A stretch of DNA of 64,000 nucleotides from Streptacidiphilus anmyonensis (GTDB taxonomy: Bacteria > Actinomycetota > Actinomycetes > Streptomycetales > Streptomycetaceae), in NCBI RefSeq assembly GCF_000787855.1, contig NZ_BBPQ01000002.1, positions 380,903-444,902 of the forward strand. The letters run 5' to 3'. A model generated the notes under the pieces. It searched no databases, was not told the DNA's origin, and saw nothing but the letters and a program-made list of their open reading frames with translations. This document shows, in pieces, positions 10,593 through 42,986 of the stretch. Made by a program: the position numbers and the translations under genes. How positions within the stretch are numbered: the stretch's first letter is position 1; each line of letters opens with the position of its first letter.

Positions 10593-11504
10593 ATGCCACT
10601 TCCGCACCAGTCCGACCGCCACGAGCGCGCCCGCCGGGTCCTCGTCGTCGGCATCGACGGCGTCCGCCTCGACGTCCTGGCCGAACTGGACACGCCCCGC
10701 CTGGACGAGGTCGCCGACGCCGGCTTCCTGGCGCCGGTCGTGATCGACGCCGGTACCCCGACCATGTCCGGCCCCTGCTGGGCCACGATCGCCACCGGCG
10801 TCCACGTCACCAAGCACGCGGTGTGGAACAACGACTTCACCGGCCACCGCCTGGCCGTCTTCCCCGACTTCCTCACCCGTCTCAGCCACGGCTTCGGCCG
10901 CCGCACGTACGTCGCGGCCGCCTGGGAGCCGCTGGTGCTGGCGCGCAGCGGCGGCCCGCTGTTCAACGGGCCCGGCCGCCTGAGCTTCGTCGCCCCGGCC
11001 GCGGAGACGTGCGAGGACTGGGAGGCCGTCGACGAGCGGATGGTCCGCGACGCGGTGACCGTCCTGCGCGAGGAGGACCCGGAGGCGTCCTTCGTCTATC
11101 TGGGCGCCGTCGACGAGACCGCGCACCTGCGCGGCTGCGGCGCGGACTACCGCGACGCGGTCCTGCGCGCGGACGAGCGCCTCGGACGTCTCCTCGACGC
11201 GGTCCGCTCCCGGCCCGCCTACGCCGAGGAGGACTGGACCGTCATCGTCGTCACCGACCACGGGCACGTCGACGAGGGCGGCCACGGCGGCGACAGCGTG
11301 CTCGAGCGCACGGCCTGGATCGCCTGCAGCGGACCGGAGTTCACCCCCGGCGCGATCACCGCCCCGCTGCGCCACGTCGACGTCGTCCCGCAGGTCTTCG
11401 CCTCCCTCGGCCTCACCCCGGACCGCCACTGGACCCTGGACGGCCTGCCGTTCGCGGCGTCGGCCGCGCGGGCCACCAAGGAGGAGCTCGTCGAGCTGAT
11501 CTGA
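10593..11504 (+). CDS. alkaline-phosphatase-superfamily nucleotide pyrophosphatase/phosphodiesterase
   Basis: A 303-aa enzyme of the type I phosphodiesterase/NPP branch of the alkaline phosphatase superfamily. VLVVGIDGVRLDVL holds the first metal-binding Asp, the nucleophile Thr lies in AGTPTMSGPCWATIATGV, and VVTDHGHVDEGGHGG holds further metal-binding Asp and His residues. No signal peptide is seen, so it is probably cytosolic. It likely hydrolyses a phosphodiester or pyrophosphate; the substrate is unknown. It is transcribed alone, preceded by a palindrome, and a paralogous family member lies at 12363-13550. Confidence 0.87.
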   Translation: MPLPHQSDRHERARRVLVVGIDGVRLDVLAELDTPRLDEVADAGFLAPVVIDAGTPTMSGPCWATIATGVHVTKHAVWNNDFTGHRLAVFPDFLTRLSHGFGRRTYVAAAWEPLVLARSGGPLFNGPGRLSFVAPAAETCEDWEAVDERMVRDAVTVLREEDPEASFVYLGAVDETAHLRGCGADYRDAVLRADERLGRLLDAVRSRPAYAEEDWTVIVVTDHGHVDEGGHGGDSVLERTAWIACSGPEFTPGAITAPLRHVDVVPQVFASLGLTPDRHWTLDGLPFAASAARATKEELVELI

Positions 11505-36806: not shown

Positions 36807-37383
36807 GTCTGCCTGGGGCTCCTAAGCCGGCGGGCCAGCGGAAAGCTGACGAGACTGGTCAGAGGGGCCAGCTGCTGCGTCCCCGCACGCGCGGGGTGGA
36901 CCCACCTGCTCCGCAAAATCGGTGCGATCGTATCACCGGTTCGCGGGTGCCCCCTTTCCCGTTCCAGGGCCGGGCGTTGGGGGTGCGACCGAGGGTGCGA
37001 CCGGGGGCGGCGGCCGACGGGTGATCGGCCGACACTAGCCCACCAAGATCATCACATAGTAGCTTTGCGGCGTCAGCGCTGGGCGCGCACCGCGGGTTTG
37101 CACGCTCGTGGCGTGGGGCAATGATGGGGCCGATGGGGAGGGAGTGGTTCCGGCGTGCCGCAAGACTGTTCGCATGTGAGCGCAATGGTGCGCTCCGGAC
37201 GCCTGTCGTGATCCGTTTGCGCAATTTTCCGTTGGGAATGCCAGCGGGGTTGACTGAAGGTGATCGCGTCGACTTCCCGTGAAGTCTTGTTCATCCCCGG
37301 CACCGAGGGCCTGGCCCGGTATGCGACGGTCGATCAATCGCCGGTAGCGGAGGGGACGGCGCGCTTGGAGATCGGATAGGTGA
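36807..37383. other. intergenic region between P450 and prenyltransferase genes
   Basis: About 577 bp between divergent genes. It holds the P450 leader with the shared conservon element (36877-36939) and, from about 37030 to 37290, a less GC-rich stretch likely to carry the promoter of the prenyltransferase cassette. The tandem ggtgcgaccgagggtgcgaccg is near 36979-37001. Open frames here show no coding features. Confidence 0.5.
36877..36939 (-). promoter_or_regulatory. element shared with the cvnA upstream region (P450 copy)
   Basis: The 63-bp stretch aligns with 42724-42785 at about 50 positions, including gggtggaccc, gctccgcaaa and gatcgtatca. It starts with a small hairpin (ccccgc-acgc-gcgggg) whose counterpart at 42.7 kb is ccctgc-cact-gcaggg, a compensatory C-G to T-A change. 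It ends 71 bp upstream of the P450 ATG. On the coding strand a tacgat box could serve as a -10. Confidence 0.7.
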
Positions 37384-38547
37384 GTGGACAGCATCTTCTC
37401 GGCCGAAGGGCGTTCCATCGGGGAGTTCCTCCGCGAACGCTGGACCGACATGGGCGATGGGCTCGGCCTGCCGCACTCCATGACCGGACCGGTGACGGAG
37501 CAGGTGGTGGATCTGCTGCGACCATGGGCCGACATACCCGTCGGTCGGACCTGCCCGTTCCCCTCGTTCGTCGCCGGTGACGGCTTCCCCGCCGAGATGT
37601 CGGTGAAATGGTCCCAAGGAAGACCTGAACTGCGGATCCTCTTCGAGGCGTTGGGTGCCTCCCGGCCCGTCACCGCAGCCTCCAACCTCGCCGCCGCAGC
37701 CGAACTGACGGACCGACTGGCCGCAGAGCCGCTGGTCAGCCTGGACTGGTACCGGAAGGTGGCCGACGTGTTCGCTCCGGCCGCCGACCAGGGAACCGCG
37801 CCGACGCCCGTATGGCACTCACTGGCTTGGCGCCCCGGGCGTCCGCCGGCCTTCAAGCTCTACTTCGGGCTCTACGACCTGGCCCCGCAGAAACGTTACG
37901 CCGCGGTCAACGAGGCGATGGAACGCCTCGGGATGGGCACCGCGTGGGCCGACACCTGCGTGGAGGTGGCACGAGCGACCATGGCGGACGGAGTCGAGCG
38001 CGAGCTGGAGTTCTTCGCCCTCGACCTGGACTCCAGCGCCAAGGCCCGGGCCAAGGTCTACTTCCGCAACCACACCGGCAGCGTCGCGGTCCTGGAGCAG
38101 ATGGCCTCGCTCGCCCGCGCCCACGAACCGGACAGAGCCCGCTCCGCCTTCCGGACCCTGCTCGGCACTGCGCCCGACGCCGCCGGAGACACCCCGCTGA
38201 CCTGCCTGGCCTTCCGGTCGGGCGCCAACCGCGCCGACGAGTCGACCACCTACTTCCGGGTGTCGAGTCTCACCGCCTCCGACGCAGAGGCCGCGGTCAG
38301 GATCGGCGCGCTGATGGCGCACGAGGACCTGGACCCGCGACGCCACCACGCCCTCCTCCAGGCCGTGGCCCCACAGCCCCTGAACCGGATCCGGGGCCTC
38401 CAGGAGCTGGTCAGCTACCGCTCACGCGGCTCGGAGGGCGACGTGTCCGTCTACTTCAGGTTTCCGCTCTACCCCCCGCTCGCCGCCCAGCCGAGTCCGG
38501 TGCCGCGGCAGTCCCGTGTGTTCCTCCAGGAGGTCGAATCCGTATGA
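37384..38547 (+). CDS. aromatic prenyltransferase, DMATS/ABBA type
   Basis: A 387-aa protein resembling bacterial tryptophan dimethylallyltransferase-like (indole) prenyltransferases. Evidence is the pattern of alternating strand motifs: EMSVKWSQGRPELRILFEALG, FKLYFGLYDLAPQKRYAAVN, RAKVYFRNHTGSV and STTYFRVSSLT, with regularly spaced Lys, Arg and Tyr residues of the kind that bind the diphosphate in the ABBA barrel, and a length near the family norm. No Asp-rich prenyl motif is present, as expected. The start is GTG 37384 behind ggataggtga. It is the first of three overlapping genes. The prenyl acceptor is unknown. Assignment is from motif memory. Confidence 0.72.
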   Translation: MDSIFSAEGRSIGEFLRERWTDMGDGLGLPHSMTGPVTEQVVDLLRPWADIPVGRTCPFPSFVAGDGFPAEMSVKWSQGRPELRILFEALGASRPVTAASNLAAAAELTDRLAAEPLVSLDWYRKVADVFAPAADQGTAPTPVWHSLAWRPGRPPAFKLYFGLYDLAPQKRYAAVNEAMERLGMGTAWADTCVEVARATMADGVERELEFFALDLDSSAKARAKVYFRNHTGSVAVLEQMASLARAHEPDRARSAFRTLLGTAPDAAGDTPLTCLAFRSGANRADESTTYFRVSSLTASDAEAAVRIGALMAHEDLDPRRHHALLQAVAPQPLNRIRGLQELVSYRSRGSEGDVSVYFRFPLYPPLAAQPSPVPRQSRVFLQEVESV

Positions 38548-39185
38548 CCGTCACCATGCCTGCGCCCCTGCGGGAAGTCGCCGACAGGAACGAGCAGCAC
38601 GTCCGCACATACCGCGCCAGCAGCCTGATCACTCTGTTGGAGGACCCCACGACGCCGGCGGCCACCAGGGACGCCGTCATGGCGCACGTCGCGCCGTGGT
38701 CGGACGCGTTCCAGCGGATGATCAGCGTCCGGGCGGAGTTCGAGACCGACCCCCAGCTGAAGGAACTGGCCGTCGAGCACCAGGAGGAGGAGCTCGGCCA
38801 CAACGGGATCCTGGCGGACAGCCACGACACCGGCCGGAAACCCGGCTGGGACCCCGTCGTGGAAGCCGGAGCGGCCTGGTTCGTCGACCAGTTCCGCGTC
38901 CTGCCCGGCCTGCACAAGGTCGTGCTGGCCCACCTCGTGCTGGAGGCCGGCAGCCTCACCTTCAGCAACGCCGGCTCCCTGGCCTTCCCCGGCAACGCCT
39001 ACTTCGCCCTGCACGACGAGGCGGACGAGGAGCACATCGAGATGGGCTACCGCCTGCTCGCCGAACGCCAGGAGTGGGAGCTCGGCGAGGTCAGCGAACT
39101 CCTCGACCGCGCCTGGCAGATCATCACCATGGTCTCCGACCGGATCGCCGAACTGGCGCTCCGCGACACCGCGGTGCCGGCATGA
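38544..39185 (+). CDS. haem-oxygenase-like diiron oxidase (HDO) family protein
   Basis: A 213-aa all-helical protein. Carboxylates and His are placed as in HDO enzymes such as UndA and SznF: E74/E78 and E82 with H86 in KELAVEHQEEELGHN, E134 in LVLEAGS, and the tell-tale HxxxDxxH, H157-D161-H164, in ALHDEADEEHIEMG. Members perform O2-dependent oxidations such as N-oxygenation, C-C cleavage or nitrile/alkene formation. ccaggagg precedes ATG 38544, and the start overlaps the prenyltransferase stop (ATGA). It probably oxidises the prenylated product or its precursor. Another ferritin-like/TenA-type fold is possible. Confidence 0.72.
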   Translation: MTVTMPAPLREVADRNEQHVRTYRASSLITLLEDPTTPAATRDAVMAHVAPWSDAFQRMISVRAEFETDPQLKELAVEHQEEELGHNGILADSHDTGRKPGWDPVVEAGAAWFVDQFRVLPGLHKVVLAHLVLEAGSLTFSNAGSLAFPGNAYFALHDEADEEHIEMGYRLLAERQEWELGEVSELLDRAWQIITMVSDRIAELALRDTAVPA

Positions 39186-40039
39186 GCGCACGCCCCGAGG
39201 AGACCGTCGACGCCGAATCCGCCGCCAGAGTCGCCGAGCACAGCGCCCGGCTGTTCCAGCAGACCCTCGGCGACCGTCTGGTCGCGGCCTACGCCCTCGG
39301 CAGCCTCGCCCACGGGGGGTTCGCGCCCGCCGTCAGCGACATCGACCTCGCCCTCGTCCTGACGGACCGCCGCCAGGACGACGACGAGACCGTCCGCGGC
39401 GTCACCCACGAGCTCCACCGGAAGGACGCCGCATACCAGCGCCTGTCGGTCTTCTGGAGCTCCCTGCCGGCCCTGCGCGCGGACCGGGAGGACGGCAGGT
39501 TCCCGGCCGTCGACCGGCTCGACCTCAAGGTCAGCGGTGCGCTGCTGCTGGGCGGGGACGTGCGCCCGGAGGTGGCGCAGCCGGGCGCGGCCACGCTGCT
39601 GACCGACAGCGTCCGCTTCGCCCTGCGGATGCTCGCGCCGGACCCCGTGGTGGCCGAGTTCCACCACCCCGCGCGGCTGGCGGCCGACACCAGGCGCTTC
39701 ACCAAGGCGGTGCTGCTCCCCCTCAGGTTCCTCTACACCGCCGCCGCCGCGGACTGCGGCTCCACCGACGACGCCATCCGCCACCACCTCGCGCAACCCG
39801 CACCGGTGGCCGCGGAACTCGTCCGTGCCGCGACGCGCGCACGCCACGGGCAGCCGGACCCGGCGGAGCACCTGACCGGGCTCCTGCACGCCGAGCTCGT
39901 GCCGCTCTACCTGTACTACATCGACAGCTGCCTGCCGAGGCTGGCCCGCCTGGCCCCGGCCGACGGCGACCTGGCACAGGGCCTCAGCGACTGGCGGGCA
40001 CGGCTGCTGGACCGGCCCGAAGCCCGCGCTCCGCACTGA
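39182..40039 (+). CDS. nucleotidyltransferase (aminoglycoside-adenylyltransferase-like)
   Basis: A 285-aa protein with the Pol-beta-type nucleotidyltransferase signature GSLAHGGFAPAVSDIDLALVL (GS at 40-41, D53 and D55 as metal ligands) and a helical C-terminal domain as in ANT(3'')-type enzymes (AADTRRFTKAVLLPLRFLYT). It would transfer AMP or another nucleotide to a hydroxyl of a small molecule. The ATGA overlap with the oxidase gene ties it to the cassette; it may modify the product or protect the producer. No antibiotic resistance phenotype can be claimed. A strong terminator follows. Confidence 0.8.
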   Translation: MSARPEETVDAESAARVAEHSARLFQQTLGDRLVAAYALGSLAHGGFAPAVSDIDLALVLTDRRQDDDETVRGVTHELHRKDAAYQRLSVFWSSLPALRADREDGRFPAVDRLDLKVSGALLLGGDVRPEVAQPGAATLLTDSVRFALRMLAPDPVVAEFHHPARLAADTRRFTKAVLLPLRFLYTAAAADCGSTDDAIRHHLAQPAPVAAELVRAATRARHGQPDPAEHLTGLLHAELVPLYLYYIDSCLPRLARLAPADGDLAQGLSDWRARLLDRPEARAPH

Positions 40040-40094: not shown

Positions 40095-40127
40095 GAAGGG
40101 GCCGTCCCTCCCGGGGACGGCCCCTTC
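40095..40127. terminator. bidirectional terminator between cassette and cvnD
   Basis: gaaggggccgtccc (40095-40108) and gggacggccccttc (40114-40127) form a perfect 14-bp stem with a 5-nt loop in the 116-bp gap between convergent genes. Confidence 0.9.
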
Positions 40128-40155: not shown

Positions 40156-40767
40156 CTAGCCGACCCGGGCCAGCAGGTAGCTGACGAGCGTGGTCAGCGC
40201 GGCGGCCGACGACTGCTCGTCGCGCGCGTCGCAGGTGACGACGGGGGTGTCGTCGAGGAGGTCGAGGGCCTCCCGCAGCGCGGCCTCGGCGCGCACCGGG
40301 TTGCCGTCGAAGTTGTTGACTGCGATCGCGTAGTCGAGACCGTACTGCTCGATCAGGTCGATCACCGCGAAGGAGTCGGCCAGCCGCTCCGGGTCGACCA
40401 GGACCAGCGCGCCGAGGGCGCCCCGGGCCATGTCCTCCCACATCTGCACGAACCGCACCTGTCCGGGGGTGCCGAACAGGTAGAGCACGACGCGGTCGCT
40501 GATGGTGAGCCGGCCGAAGTCCATGGCCACGGTGGTGGTGGTCTTCCCCCGGACCCCCTTCAGGTCGTCCACGTCCTGCGCGGCCCGGGTCATCGTCTCC
40601 TCGGTGGACAACGGCTCGATCTCGGAGATCGAGCCGATGAACGTGGTCTTGCCCACCGCGAAGTGACCGACGACGAGGATCTTGACGGCCGTCTGCGAGG
40701 CGCCGCCCGCGACGTAGTCCCGCGACTGCAGGCTCGGTCGTTCACCCAAACTTGGCCCGGAGACCAC
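40156..40767 (-). CDS. cvnD: conservon GTPase CvnD
   Basis: A 203-aa small GTP-binding protein of the conservon type. G1 is VVGHFAVGKTTFIG; G3 reads LFGTPGQVRF where Ras has DTAGQ; NNFDG replaces the usual NKxD, as is normal for CvnD proteins. It works with CvnA-C as a membrane-associated, GPCR-like signalling complex. GTG 40767 is chosen because ggaggaggt lies just upstream; it overlaps the end of cvnC by 26 bp. The terminator 40095-40127 lies just beyond the stop. Confidence 0.92.
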   Translation of the reverse strand: MVSGPSLGERPSLQSRDYVAGGASQTAVKILVVGHFAVGKTTFIGSISEIEPLSTEETMTRAAQDVDDLKGVRGKTTTTVAMDFGRLTISDRVVLYLFGTPGQVRFVQMWEDMARGALGALVLVDPERLADSFAVIDLIEQYGLDYAIAVNNFDGNPVRAEAALREALDLLDDTPVVTCDARDEQSSAAALTTLVSYLLARVG

Positions 40768-41119
40768 TGAGCACCTCCTCCAGCAACTCCTTGTCGGCGA
40801 GGCGGGCACGGGCCACCGGCGGACGGGTGATCAGATAGCCGGCCTCGGTGAGTCCGGCCAGCATGATCCGCACCACGCCCAGCGGCAGCCGCGTGTGCCC
40901 CGCGATCTCGGCCACCGAGAGGTAGCCCGCGGAGCAGAGGTCCAGCAGCCGCTGTTCCTCCGGCGACAGCCGCAGCGGCCGCTGCACCTGCTCGGGCGCG
41001 GCCGTCACCAGGGTGATCAGCGAGAGCTGGTCGTCGTCGGGCAGCCCGCGTCCCTTGGTGATGACGTACGGACGCACTAACTCCGTGGCTTCGAGCTCGA
41101 AGTCGCCGGGCCCGTTCAT
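40742..41119 (-). CDS. cvnC: conservon protein CvnC (DUF742)
   Basis: A 125-aa DUF742 protein. The N-terminal VRPYVITKGRG is typical, followed by a winged-helix-like segment (SVAEIAGHTRLPLGVVRIMLAGLTEAGYL). It bridges CvnB and CvnD in the complex by family knowledge. The start overlaps the cvnB stop (ATGA) and the end overlaps cvnD by 26 bp, so all four proteins are translationally coupled. Confidence 0.93.
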   Translation of the reverse strand: MNGPGDFELEATELVRPYVITKGRGLPDDDQLSLITLVTAAPEQVQRPLRLSPEEQRLLDLCSAGYLSVAEIAGHTRLPLGVVRIMLAGLTEAGYLITRPPVARARLADKELLEEVLSGLRAKFG

Positions 41120-41517
41120 GAGCGCACTCCGAGGTTCTCGCGCGGCGGCGCGACCAGCACCTTGCCCAGCTGGCCGACCAACTGCTGCATCCGGAAGGTG
41201 ATGTCCTGCATGTCGACGTCCGCCTCGGCGGAGACGCCGAGGTAGGCGCCCTCACCGGCGGAGATCAGGAACACCCAGCCGCCGTCGAACTCGACCAGCG
41301 TCTGGCGCCAGCGCCCGCTGCTGTCCTCGCAGAAGAAGCCGAGCGAGCGGCTCAGCGACTGCACACCGCTCATCGCGGCGGCGACGCGGTCCGCGTCGTC
41401 CTTGTCGAAGTCCTTGGTACGGGCCATGAGGAGCCCGTCGGCCGAGATCAGGACCGCGTGCAGGGCCCCGGGAATCTCCAGGGCGCTGTCGAGCATCCAT
41501 GACAGATCTTCGTTCAC
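41116..41517 (-). CDS. cvnB: conservon roadblock/LC7 protein CvnB
   Basis: A 133-aa roadblock/LC7 domain protein (IPGALHAVLISADGLLMART, AMSGVQSLSRSLG, VSAEADVDMQDITFRMQQLV). Roadblock proteins act as scaffolds or GTPase-activating partners of small GTPases such as CvnD. Coupled to cvnA upstream and cvnC downstream by ATGA overlaps. Confidence 0.94.
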   Translation of the reverse strand: MNEDLSWMLDSALEIPGALHAVLISADGLLMARTKDFDKDDADRVAAAMSGVQSLSRSLGFFCEDSSGRWRQTLVEFDGGWVFLISAGEGAYLGVSAEADVDMQDITFRMQQLVGQLGKVLVAPPRENLGVRS

Positions 41518-42689
41518 GAGAACTCATGCCCTTCACTGCTTGACCCACGTGTGCTGATCGACTGGTCCGTGTCGTCCCCACGGGCGGCCCGGCCCGACCG
41601 GGTGCCGCGCTGGAACGCTCCCATGATCGCCGCGGTCTCCGCGCCGGACCGGGCCGAGGCGATCGGGGTGGGCGCGGAGCCCGGCACGATCGCCATCGGA
41701 CGCTTACGCCTTCTCAGCGGCAGTCCGTCGGTGGTCGTCGGGGAGGCCGGCACGGGCTCGGGCCCGTTCGGCTGCGGCGGTGGCACGGAGGAGCGCGTCA
41801 TGGGAGCAGCCGGTGCCTTCTTCTCGGGCATGGACGTCAGCAACTCGTGCGGCAGCAGGACCACCGCCCGCACGCCGCCGTAGGGCGAGGAGGAGTCCAC
41901 CGACACCTCGAAGCCGAAGCGCTCGCTCAGCACGCCGATGACGGCGAGACCGAACTGCGGCGGATTACCGAGCCCCGCGACGCTCTTGACGCGGTCGCTG
42001 CTCAGCAGCCGCTCCGCGCGGGCCCGTTCCTCGTCGTTCATGCCGACACCGGCGTCGTCCACGACGATCGCCACGCCCTTGGGCACGGTGCGGATGTTGA
42101 TCTCGACGACCGTGTCCGGGCTGGAGTAGCTGGTGGCGTTGTCGAGGAGCTCGGCCAGGGCCAGCGCCACCGGCTCGACGGCGCGGCTGGAGATGCCGAA
42201 GTCCACCTGGGAGAGGATCTCCACGCGTCGGAAGTGCCGCACGCGTCCCTGCGCGCTGCGGACCACGTCGTAGACCGAGGCGTTGTCGCGGTGGCGGCCG
42301 AGCCAGCCGTCGCAGAGCACCGCGATGGACTGGGCGCGGCGGCCGAACTGGGAGTTGGTGTGGTCGATCTCCAGCAGGTCCTGGAGGATGACCGACTCAC
42401 CGTGCTTGGTCTGCAGCCGCGAAAGGATCAGCTGCTGCTCGGCGGCCAGACCCTGAAGGGTGCGCATGGCCGACTTCAGCACGGTCTTCGTCGCTTCCTC
42501 GGCCTGTTCCTGGGCCGAGGCGACGGACTGCATGTAGTGGTGCTCCAGATCGGAGTAGTACTCCCTGAGCCCCGCTATCTCCTGCCGCAACGCCATGGCC
42601 GCCTTGCGCTGGCGGACGACGACGGCGATCACGATGAGCAGGAGCACGACAAGAGCCCACAGCGCTGGGTTCTCGATGTATTCCGTCAT
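41514..42689 (-). CDS. cvnA: conservon sensor kinase-like protein CvnA
   Basis: A 391-aa membrane-anchored kinase-like protein. One transmembrane helix (about residues 10-27) is followed by a coiled segment (30-95), a DHp-like region and a HATPase domain (ELLDNATSYSSPD, VDDAGVGMNDEE, PPQFGLAVIG). There is no extracytoplasmic sensor domain, as is usual for small CvnA forms. The last ~100 residues are Pro/Ser/Arg-rich and probably disordered. ATG 42689 follows gaagagag. It heads the conservon; the shared element 42724-42785 lies just upstream. Confidence 0.93.
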   Translation of the reverse strand: MTEYIENPALWALVVLLLIVIAVVVRQRKAAMALRQEIAGLREYYSDLEHHYMQSVASAQEQAEEATKTVLKSAMRTLQGLAAEQQLILSRLQTKHGESVILQDLLEIDHTNSQFGRRAQSIAVLCDGWLGRHRDNASVYDVVRSAQGRVRHFRRVEILSQVDFGISSRAVEPVALALAELLDNATSYSSPDTVVEINIRTVPKGVAIVVDDAGVGMNDEERARAERLLSSDRVKSVAGLGNPPQFGLAVIGVLSERFGFEVSVDSSSPYGGVRAVVLLPHELLTSMPEKKAPAAPMTRSSVPPPQPNGPEPVPASPTTTDGLPLRRRKRPMAIVPGSAPTPIASARSGAETAAIMGAFQRGTRSGRAARGDDTDQSISTRGSSSEGHEFS

Positions 42690-42723
42690 AAGACTCTCTT
42701 CAGGCGTCTGACAGCCGGTCTCC

Positions 42724-42785
42724 GCGTCCCTGCCACTGCAGGGTGGACCCGCCCGCTCCGCAAAGCGAGGTGATCGTATCATCGG
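42724..42785 (-). promoter_or_regulatory. element shared with the P450 upstream region (cvnA copy)
   Basis: The 62-bp partner of 36877-36939, placed 35-96 bp upstream of the cvnA ATG. It shares gcgtccc at one end, the covarying six-base-pair hairpin (ccctgc-cact-gcaggg), gggtggaccc, gctccgcaaa and tgatcgtatca. The order and spacing are the same apart from one base. A common regulator or RNA structure for conservon and P450 is inferred. Confidence 0.7.
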
Positions 42786-42986
42786 CCACACAGGCAACCG
42801 ACCGAGCGTCCGCCCGGCAGTCTCGACATGAGGATGCGTCTCTTCCACTTGTACGAGACCCAGTTGACGCGAGCCTGGCACACCGCGGGCGCGCCCCAGC
42901 CGACTTCACACGAACATCACCAACACTTAACGCAGACAGGCCGTTTGACGCCCCCGCGAGTCGATGTGAGTCGTCGTGAGCCGACG

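Follow-up and report, generated by a model that had tools for sequence, protein, structure and literature searches.

A prenyltransferase, diiron oxidase and nucleotidyltransferase operon that appears to be a third type of prenylindole locus linked to a conservon in Streptacidiphilus

What might three short, tightly coupled genes for an aromatic prenyltransferase, a haem-oxygenase-like diiron oxidase (HDO) and a nucleotidyltransferase make together, and why do they lie between a conservon and a cytochrome P450 gene? We addressed this question for Streptacidiphilus anmyonensis, analysing a window of 64,000 nucleotides from contig NZ_BBPQ01000002.1 in which the genes, here called A, B and C, occupy positions 37384–40039. 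The reactions of HDO enzymes with oxygen are among the most surprising known. Only about a dozen of them have an assigned function (PMC13108848). We propose, with a probability of roughly 0.6, that A, B and C make up a minimal biosynthetic operon: A would add a prenyl group to an aromatic amino acid, tryptophan being the likeliest, whose side chain B would then shorten by oxidation. Judged by its surroundings, the trio seems to be a third type of prenylindole locus linked to a conservon, with the HDO in place of the tryptophanase or flavin monooxygenase (FMO) of the two types already described. We found no paper in the open-access literature that joins a DMATS-family prenyltransferase with an HDO or describes the trio, in line with the claim of a first-pass annotation of the window that the combination is undescribed.

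An open reading frame check of the window confirmed the three genes on the plus strand: A (37384–38547; 387 residues, GTG start), B (38544–39185; 213 residues) and C (39182–40039; 285 residues). The A–B and B–C joints are each a 4-base ATGA overlap, and both were kept in all eight Streptacidiphilus and Streptomyces cassettes compared, where for one (L013) the B–C overlap was taken from the junction sequence itself, the automated start call lying further downstream. The near neighbours, comprising the P450, the conservon genes, a response regulator and a kinase, are all on the minus strand. The first-pass annotation had noted the overlaps and the opposite orientation, and had set co-occurrence in other genomes beforehand as the test of its proposal; on all three counts it was borne out. 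Seven Streptacidiphilus-group genomes carry the trio in the same gene order, as do genomes of Streptomyces and Amycolatopsis. Within the genus of the window genome it is carried by 7 of 14 genomes, including Streptacidiphilus melanogenes, S. neutrinimicus and S. pinicola, whereas the four Streptomyces that carry it have no neighbours in common around it, which marks the trio as a self-contained unit. Amycolatopsis sp. 2-2 holds a diverged copy (46, 56 and 51% identity by alignment for A, B and C, respectively) directly downstream of a different conservon.

The ratio of nonsynonymous to synonymous substitution (dN/dS) for the trio is about 0.3–0.4, with dS likely underestimated given GC-saturated third positions, a value that points to purifying selection rather than chance grouping. 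Pairwise distances for the three genes also rise and fall together (Spearman 0.79–0.91). Three unrelated genes drifting together, with no pathway between them, would be compatible with the lack of a known product, but this reading is scarcely credible: gene order, ATGA overlaps and catalytic residues are kept across genera, the genes appear to be under purifying selection, and C was seen only where A and B occur in a sample of 198 genomes.

A is assigned by sequence comparison to the DMATS family of aromatic prenyltransferases. It passes Pfam PF11991 (61 bits against a gathering score of 25), and phmmer matches it to the DMATS structures 4yzj and 6zry at E about 1e-26, its closest solved relatives being bacterial DMATS enzymes. 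Its score for NCBIfam TIGR03429 (96.9 bits) is below the cut-off of 163.85, which is evidently strict for this DMATS branch, since the iptA-type enzyme of L117 also falls short (142 bits). Residues E71, K158, Y160, R222, K224, Y226, Y290, Y345 and Y357 are invariant across 11 cassettes; from family knowledge, we take E71 to be the indole-contacting glutamate and the tyrosine and basic positions to form the pyrophosphate shield. A is the single DMATS gene of the window genome.

For B, fold comparison alone was informative, as searches of its sequence and profile against the PDB returned chance matches only. Pfam PF14518 gave a sub-threshold 17.7 bits (gathering score 28.9) and was matched at E ≤ 1 by 11 of the 12 relatives of B. 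The AlphaFold model of B, with a predicted local distance difference test (pLDDT) value of 91.8, has the seven-helix haem-oxygenase-like fold, and in a VIA-align comparison its top ten entries were all AetD (Z 20.3–21.1, root-mean-square deviation about 2.4 Å over about 200 residues), with CADD (Z 18.9) and UndA (Z 18.5) next. The AetD-first ranking depends on VIA-align, the finer aligner, because Foldseek ranked UndA and TenA-like chains above AetD. Six HDO metal ligands, E83-x2-H86, E134 and H157-x3-D161-x2-H164, are invariant in 12 relatives down to 44% identity and make up a 3-His/3-carboxylate set including H-x3-D/E-x2-H; by this model, B is a diiron oxidase of the HDO family with a predicted iron site. 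Both initial family assignments, DMATS for A and HDO for B, thus held, the latter by structure prediction.

AetD, which converts brominated tryptophan to an indole nitrile, has the ligands D76-x2-H79, E140 and H172-x3-E176-x2-H179, with two aromatic residues, F44 and F48, in the position of the fourth carboxylate of other HDOs (PMC11611611), and a second tryptophan HDO, SktA, forms skatole (PMC13108848). B shares with these two enzymes the fold and the 3-His/3-carboxylate ligands, and may share the aromatic pair on the auxiliary helix; like substrate-triggered HDOs, it has no carboxylate on that helix. Placed by counting spacing rather than by residue-level superposition, W52 and F56 of B sit 34 and 30 residues ahead of H86, compared with 35 and 31 for F44 and F48 ahead of H79 in AetD, and Y153 lies 4 residues before the first histidine, compared with 5 for the active-site Y167 of AetD. 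The near-AetD spacing of W52/F56 suggests that B is a substrate-triggered HDO, one whose substrate is itself a ligand to the iron. B differs from AetD and SktA in sequence (12–14% identity) and in its partner, a prenyltransferase, whereas the substrate of AetD is brominated.

Why the operon lies where it does becomes clearer from its flanks. In actinomycetes, iptA-type indole prenyltransferase genes adjoin a conservon, often with a P450, and the loci also hold a tryptophanase (type A) or an FMO (type B) (Ozaki 2013, PMC3617294). IptA with tryptophanase yields 6-dimethylallylindole-3-carbaldehyde in type A, and the DMATS SCO7467 with the FMO SCO7468 yields 5-dimethylallylindole-3-acetonitrile in type B (PMC3617294). 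We sampled 40 DMATS neighbourhoods, 25 of which had cvnA-B-C-D beside an iptA-clade DMATS, with a P450 next in nearly all and an FMO in 23 of the 25. Relative to the window orthologues, most iptA loci showed about 80–91% identity for cvnB, about 83–90% for cvnD and about 70–75% for the P450 (outlier L092 lower), and among 22 orthologues of the window P450 at ≥65% identity, 18 adjoin an iptA-type DMATS and 2 more an FMO, indicating that the window conservon and P450 descend from a prenylindole locus. The first-pass annotation correctly placed the trio between a conservon and a conservon-type P450, as if inserted; these flanks are not incidental, both belonging to a known type of prenylindole locus.

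Comparison within the genus suggests how the trio came to be there. Two genomes keep a plain arrangement, in which cvnD and the P450 are separated by a gap of about 16 bp and are followed by iptA and then the FMO. In the trio genomes, that locus has lost iptA and the FMO, and the trio lies inverted between cvnD and the P450 (L120–L123), with L124 and L125 holding the trio locus in rearranged form. The window genome has no orthologue of the SCO7468-type FMO (best match 34% over half its length), and no immediate neighbour of the trio was identified as a tryptophanase, in annotation that included no search aimed at that family. A falls in a tree clade deeply separate from iptA, which argues for non-orthologous replacement rather than divergence. 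Because the trio replaces IptA and the FMO at the conservon–P450 locus, its physiological function is probably that of the pair it displaced, achieved by different chemistry. In the genus tally, 7 genomes have only the trio, 2 only iptA, 5 neither and none both; we rejected this mutual exclusion as proof of equivalence, as the cases are too few. One further locus (L119) has a conservon, P450 and FMO without iptA and is apparently a decayed type B locus; elsewhere in the same genome, the trio lies next to a second P450.

The adjacency to conservon and P450 might nevertheless be coincidental, the trio being a mobile unit of three genes that inserted at this site by chance, as the unrelated places of the Streptomyces copies and the different, distant conservon of Amycolatopsis would allow. 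We consider this unlikely, given that a family search counted only 7 conservons in the 9.4 Mb of the window genome and the trio sits in one whose orthologues carry a DMATS in most sampled genomes, and given the second conservon adjacency in Amycolatopsis.

Set beside the type B locus, the trio locus has the orthologous conservon and P450 and a two- to three-gene core of a DMATS plus one N- or C-oxidising enzyme, but its DMATS comes from another deep clade, an HDO stands in for the FMO, a nucleotidyltransferase is added and the cassette is inverted and inserted between cvnD and the P450. With the type A locus it shares a conservon-linked DMATS and an enzyme that, in the case of B putatively, shortens the amino-acid side chain; it differs in having an HDO rather than a tryptophanase, and again in DMATS clade.

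In the proposed pathway, A would dimethylallylate the aromatic ring, its family being the firmer and its substrate the more conjectural part of this step. B would then bind the amine and carboxylate of the amino acid at its iron and use O2 to oxidise its aminopropionate side chain and cut it shorter, so that a nitrile, an aldoxime, a skatole-like compound or a related product results; here the fold and metal site are modelled and the reaction is conjectural. In a third and more doubtful step, C might transfer a nucleotide to an acidic group of the intermediate or product, or protect it. In Streptacidiphilus these steps would replace those of IptA and the FMO at a prenylindole locus under conservon–P450 control. 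Tryptophan is our favoured substrate, somewhat ahead of all others together, and the order of steps is putative. A nitrile is one candidate product, though less likely than not, and a skatole-like product, by analogy with SktA (PMC13108848), is another candidate.

That the operon acts on a free aromatic amino acid, as first suggested, is supported by the AetD-like fold of B, by descent of the host locus from a prenyltryptophan locus and by a related gene pair in another genus. Actinocatenispora rupis and A. comari each have a relative of B (48–53%) adjoining a DMATS of a distant clade, in reversed gene order and without C, suggesting that the pairing of DMATS with HDO originated or persisted in two distinct layouts. 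The A. rupis pair is followed by a DAHP synthase gene (TIGR00034, E 1e-104), which suits a pathway drawing on aromatic amino acids. In A. comari, a gene for an S-adenosylmethionine-dependent methyltransferase lies directly upstream of the pair (L018:9090-9947) and may add a methylation step.

A might instead prenylate tyrosine, a phenol or some other non-tryptophan aromatic, with B catalysing N-oxygenation, desaturation or decarboxylation to an alkene. Both families are broad in substrate, and the pyridoxal phosphate (PLP)-dependent decarboxylase and methyltransferase genes beside the closest non-cassette relative of A would fit any aromatic amino acid. We regard this version as rather unlikely though deserving of attention, since the model of B is nearest to the tryptophan enzyme AetD and the host locus is by descent a prenyltryptophan locus.

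Several observations weigh against prenylation of tryptophan followed by side-chain truncation. A is only about 28% identical to IptA-type enzymes and falls in its separate deep clade, and its acceptor could be tyrosine or another compound. The identity between B and AetD is low, and a common fold does not fix the reaction of B. Neither a conservon nor a P450 lies near the Streptomyces cassettes, and the exchange at the conservon locus probably happened once and was passed down within the genus. C, finally, may be dispensable, because it is absent in Actinocatenispora and frameshifted in Amycolatopsis. In the Amycolatopsis sp. 2-2 homologue of C (L016:10603-11425), the frameshift falls near 11214-11243 and splits the gene; it reflects a sequencing error or else makes this copy a pseudogene, and A and B are intact.

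The model is least secure in the role that it gives to C. C gave weak but mutually consistent matches to the Polbeta/NTP_transf_2 and ANT families, those to Pfam being sub-threshold, and contains a GS-x(10-11)-D-x-D motif with G40, S41, D53 and D55 invariant. Its AlphaFold model is poor (mean pLDDT 62, N-terminal half poor), with Foldseek yielding weak AadA matches only, so we judged its residues from an alignment to AadA1 at about 23% identity; an hhalign alignment of the same two proteins matched the wrong DID motif repeat and was not used. C shares the two-domain outline of AadA, an ANT(3'')(9) enzyme (PMC6065190), and retains equivalents of its two Mg-binding aspartates (D47/D49), two phosphate-binding serines (S36/S46), Asp182 (D169 in C) and Arg192. 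The same alignment showed no counterparts of Glu87, Trp112, Lys205 or His/Asn185. In ANT(3'')(9) enzymes Glu87 is the catalytic base, and E87, W112 and H/N185 define ANT(3'')(9) and ANT(9) activity (PMC6065190). C is thus predicted to be an ANT-like nucleotidyltransferase that probably lacks the ANT catalytic base; the ANT-like assignment made initially stands, while the accompanying suggestion that it nucleotidylates hydroxyls is unproven, given the apparent loss of that base.

Alignment of C with ANT(3'')(9) enzymes across both domains would also suit a self-protection role, C being a resistance nucleotidyltransferase that inactivates the A/B product or a foreign aminoglycoside. The first-pass annotation had raised self-protection, for which we found no support and which we hold to be improbable: the residues that define ANT(3'')(9) and ANT(9) activity were not found in C, and C is missing where the HDO pairs with another DMATS in Actinocatenispora. 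A defence role for the trio was likewise dropped, as A, B and C all lacked a match in PHROGs and PADLOC gave only a weak match of the nucleotidyltransferase motif region of C to the candidate PDC-S09.

If C does lack the base that ordinary ANT enzymes need for alcohol deprotonation, it might target a more acidic N-OH or carboxylate. An extended scheme built on this, a third route to nitriles that we rate a long shot, has A forming prenyl-tryptophan, B an aldoxime or N-hydroxy intermediate, and C nucleotidylating the N-OH or carboxylate as a leaving group, to give a prenylated indole nitrile or a stable nucleotide-conjugated indole. To our knowledge, nucleotidylation-driven dehydration by an ANT-fold enzyme has no precedent. 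If C does activate an acidic oxime or carboxylate, the trio would be more than a variant of known prenyl-amino-acid loci. As an HDO and a prenyltransferase with no non-ribosomal peptide synthetase or polyketide synthase, expressible as a whole operon and accompanied by an evolutionary argument for its substrate, the trio offers a compact test bed. As a known prenylindole locus with its enzymes exchanged and its conservon and P450 kept, it also opens the link between conservons and prenylated indoles to testing.

The flanking DNA agrees in part with a private promoter and a strong terminator, as first annotated. An intergenic region (36807–37383) does precede A, but it is shared as a promoter region with the divergent P450 gene (35475–36806, minus strand) and so is not private. 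Each of the seven genomes of the genus that carry the cassette retains this divergent pair. Similarity upstream of A is confined to the genus by DNA comparison, no common motif appears between genera beyond about 50 bases, and a sigma-70 scan of the region gave no consensus promoter. Between the convergent C and cvnD lies a strong hairpin on the plus strand (40095–40127; 15-pair stem, −39 kcal/mol over a 61-nt stretch, z −2.7), which is the probable terminator, consistent with the initial claim, and was not listed by a T-tail scan. The P450, of the prenylindole-locus clade, has the haem-binding cysteine (WSAGPHAC) with no evident K-helix ExxR, and is below the Pfam P450 cut-off. Beyond the hairpin, the conservon runs on the minus strand through the GTPase gene cvnD (40156–40809; PF03029/GTP-binding, about 85–90% to cvnD of Streptomyces iptA loci), cvnC (40742–41119; DUF742, PF05331, E 1e-35), cvnB (41116–41517; roadblock/LC7, PF03259, E 6e-23) and the sensor-kinase-like cvnA (41514–42881; about 70–78% to cvnA of Streptomyces iptA loci), whose true start probably lies downstream of the longest open reading frame start.

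Relatives of A and B also occur in other settings. The closest non-cassette relative of A (42–45%), on a plasmid of Streptomyces sp. SAT1 (L161:4490-7858), has the PLP-dependent decarboxylase and methyltransferase genes on either side, a group that is likely another small prenyl-amine pathway. Orphan DMATS genes at 38–41% to A occupy a fixed chromosomal place in three Streptomyces-family genomes (L065, L069 and L073), near crotonyl-CoA reductase-like and acyl-CoA mutase-like genes and with no adjoining tailoring partner. On plasmid4 of Calothrix sp. NIES-4101 (L162:4959-8771), a DMATS gene is followed by one for an FMO, a cyanobacterial pair resembling the actinomycete type B locus. Two HDO relatives of B (L008:877-2013 and L019:11533-12582) carry a fused N-terminal cupin domain, and one of these fusions sits in an Embleya cluster of ketosynthase and oxidoreductase genes.

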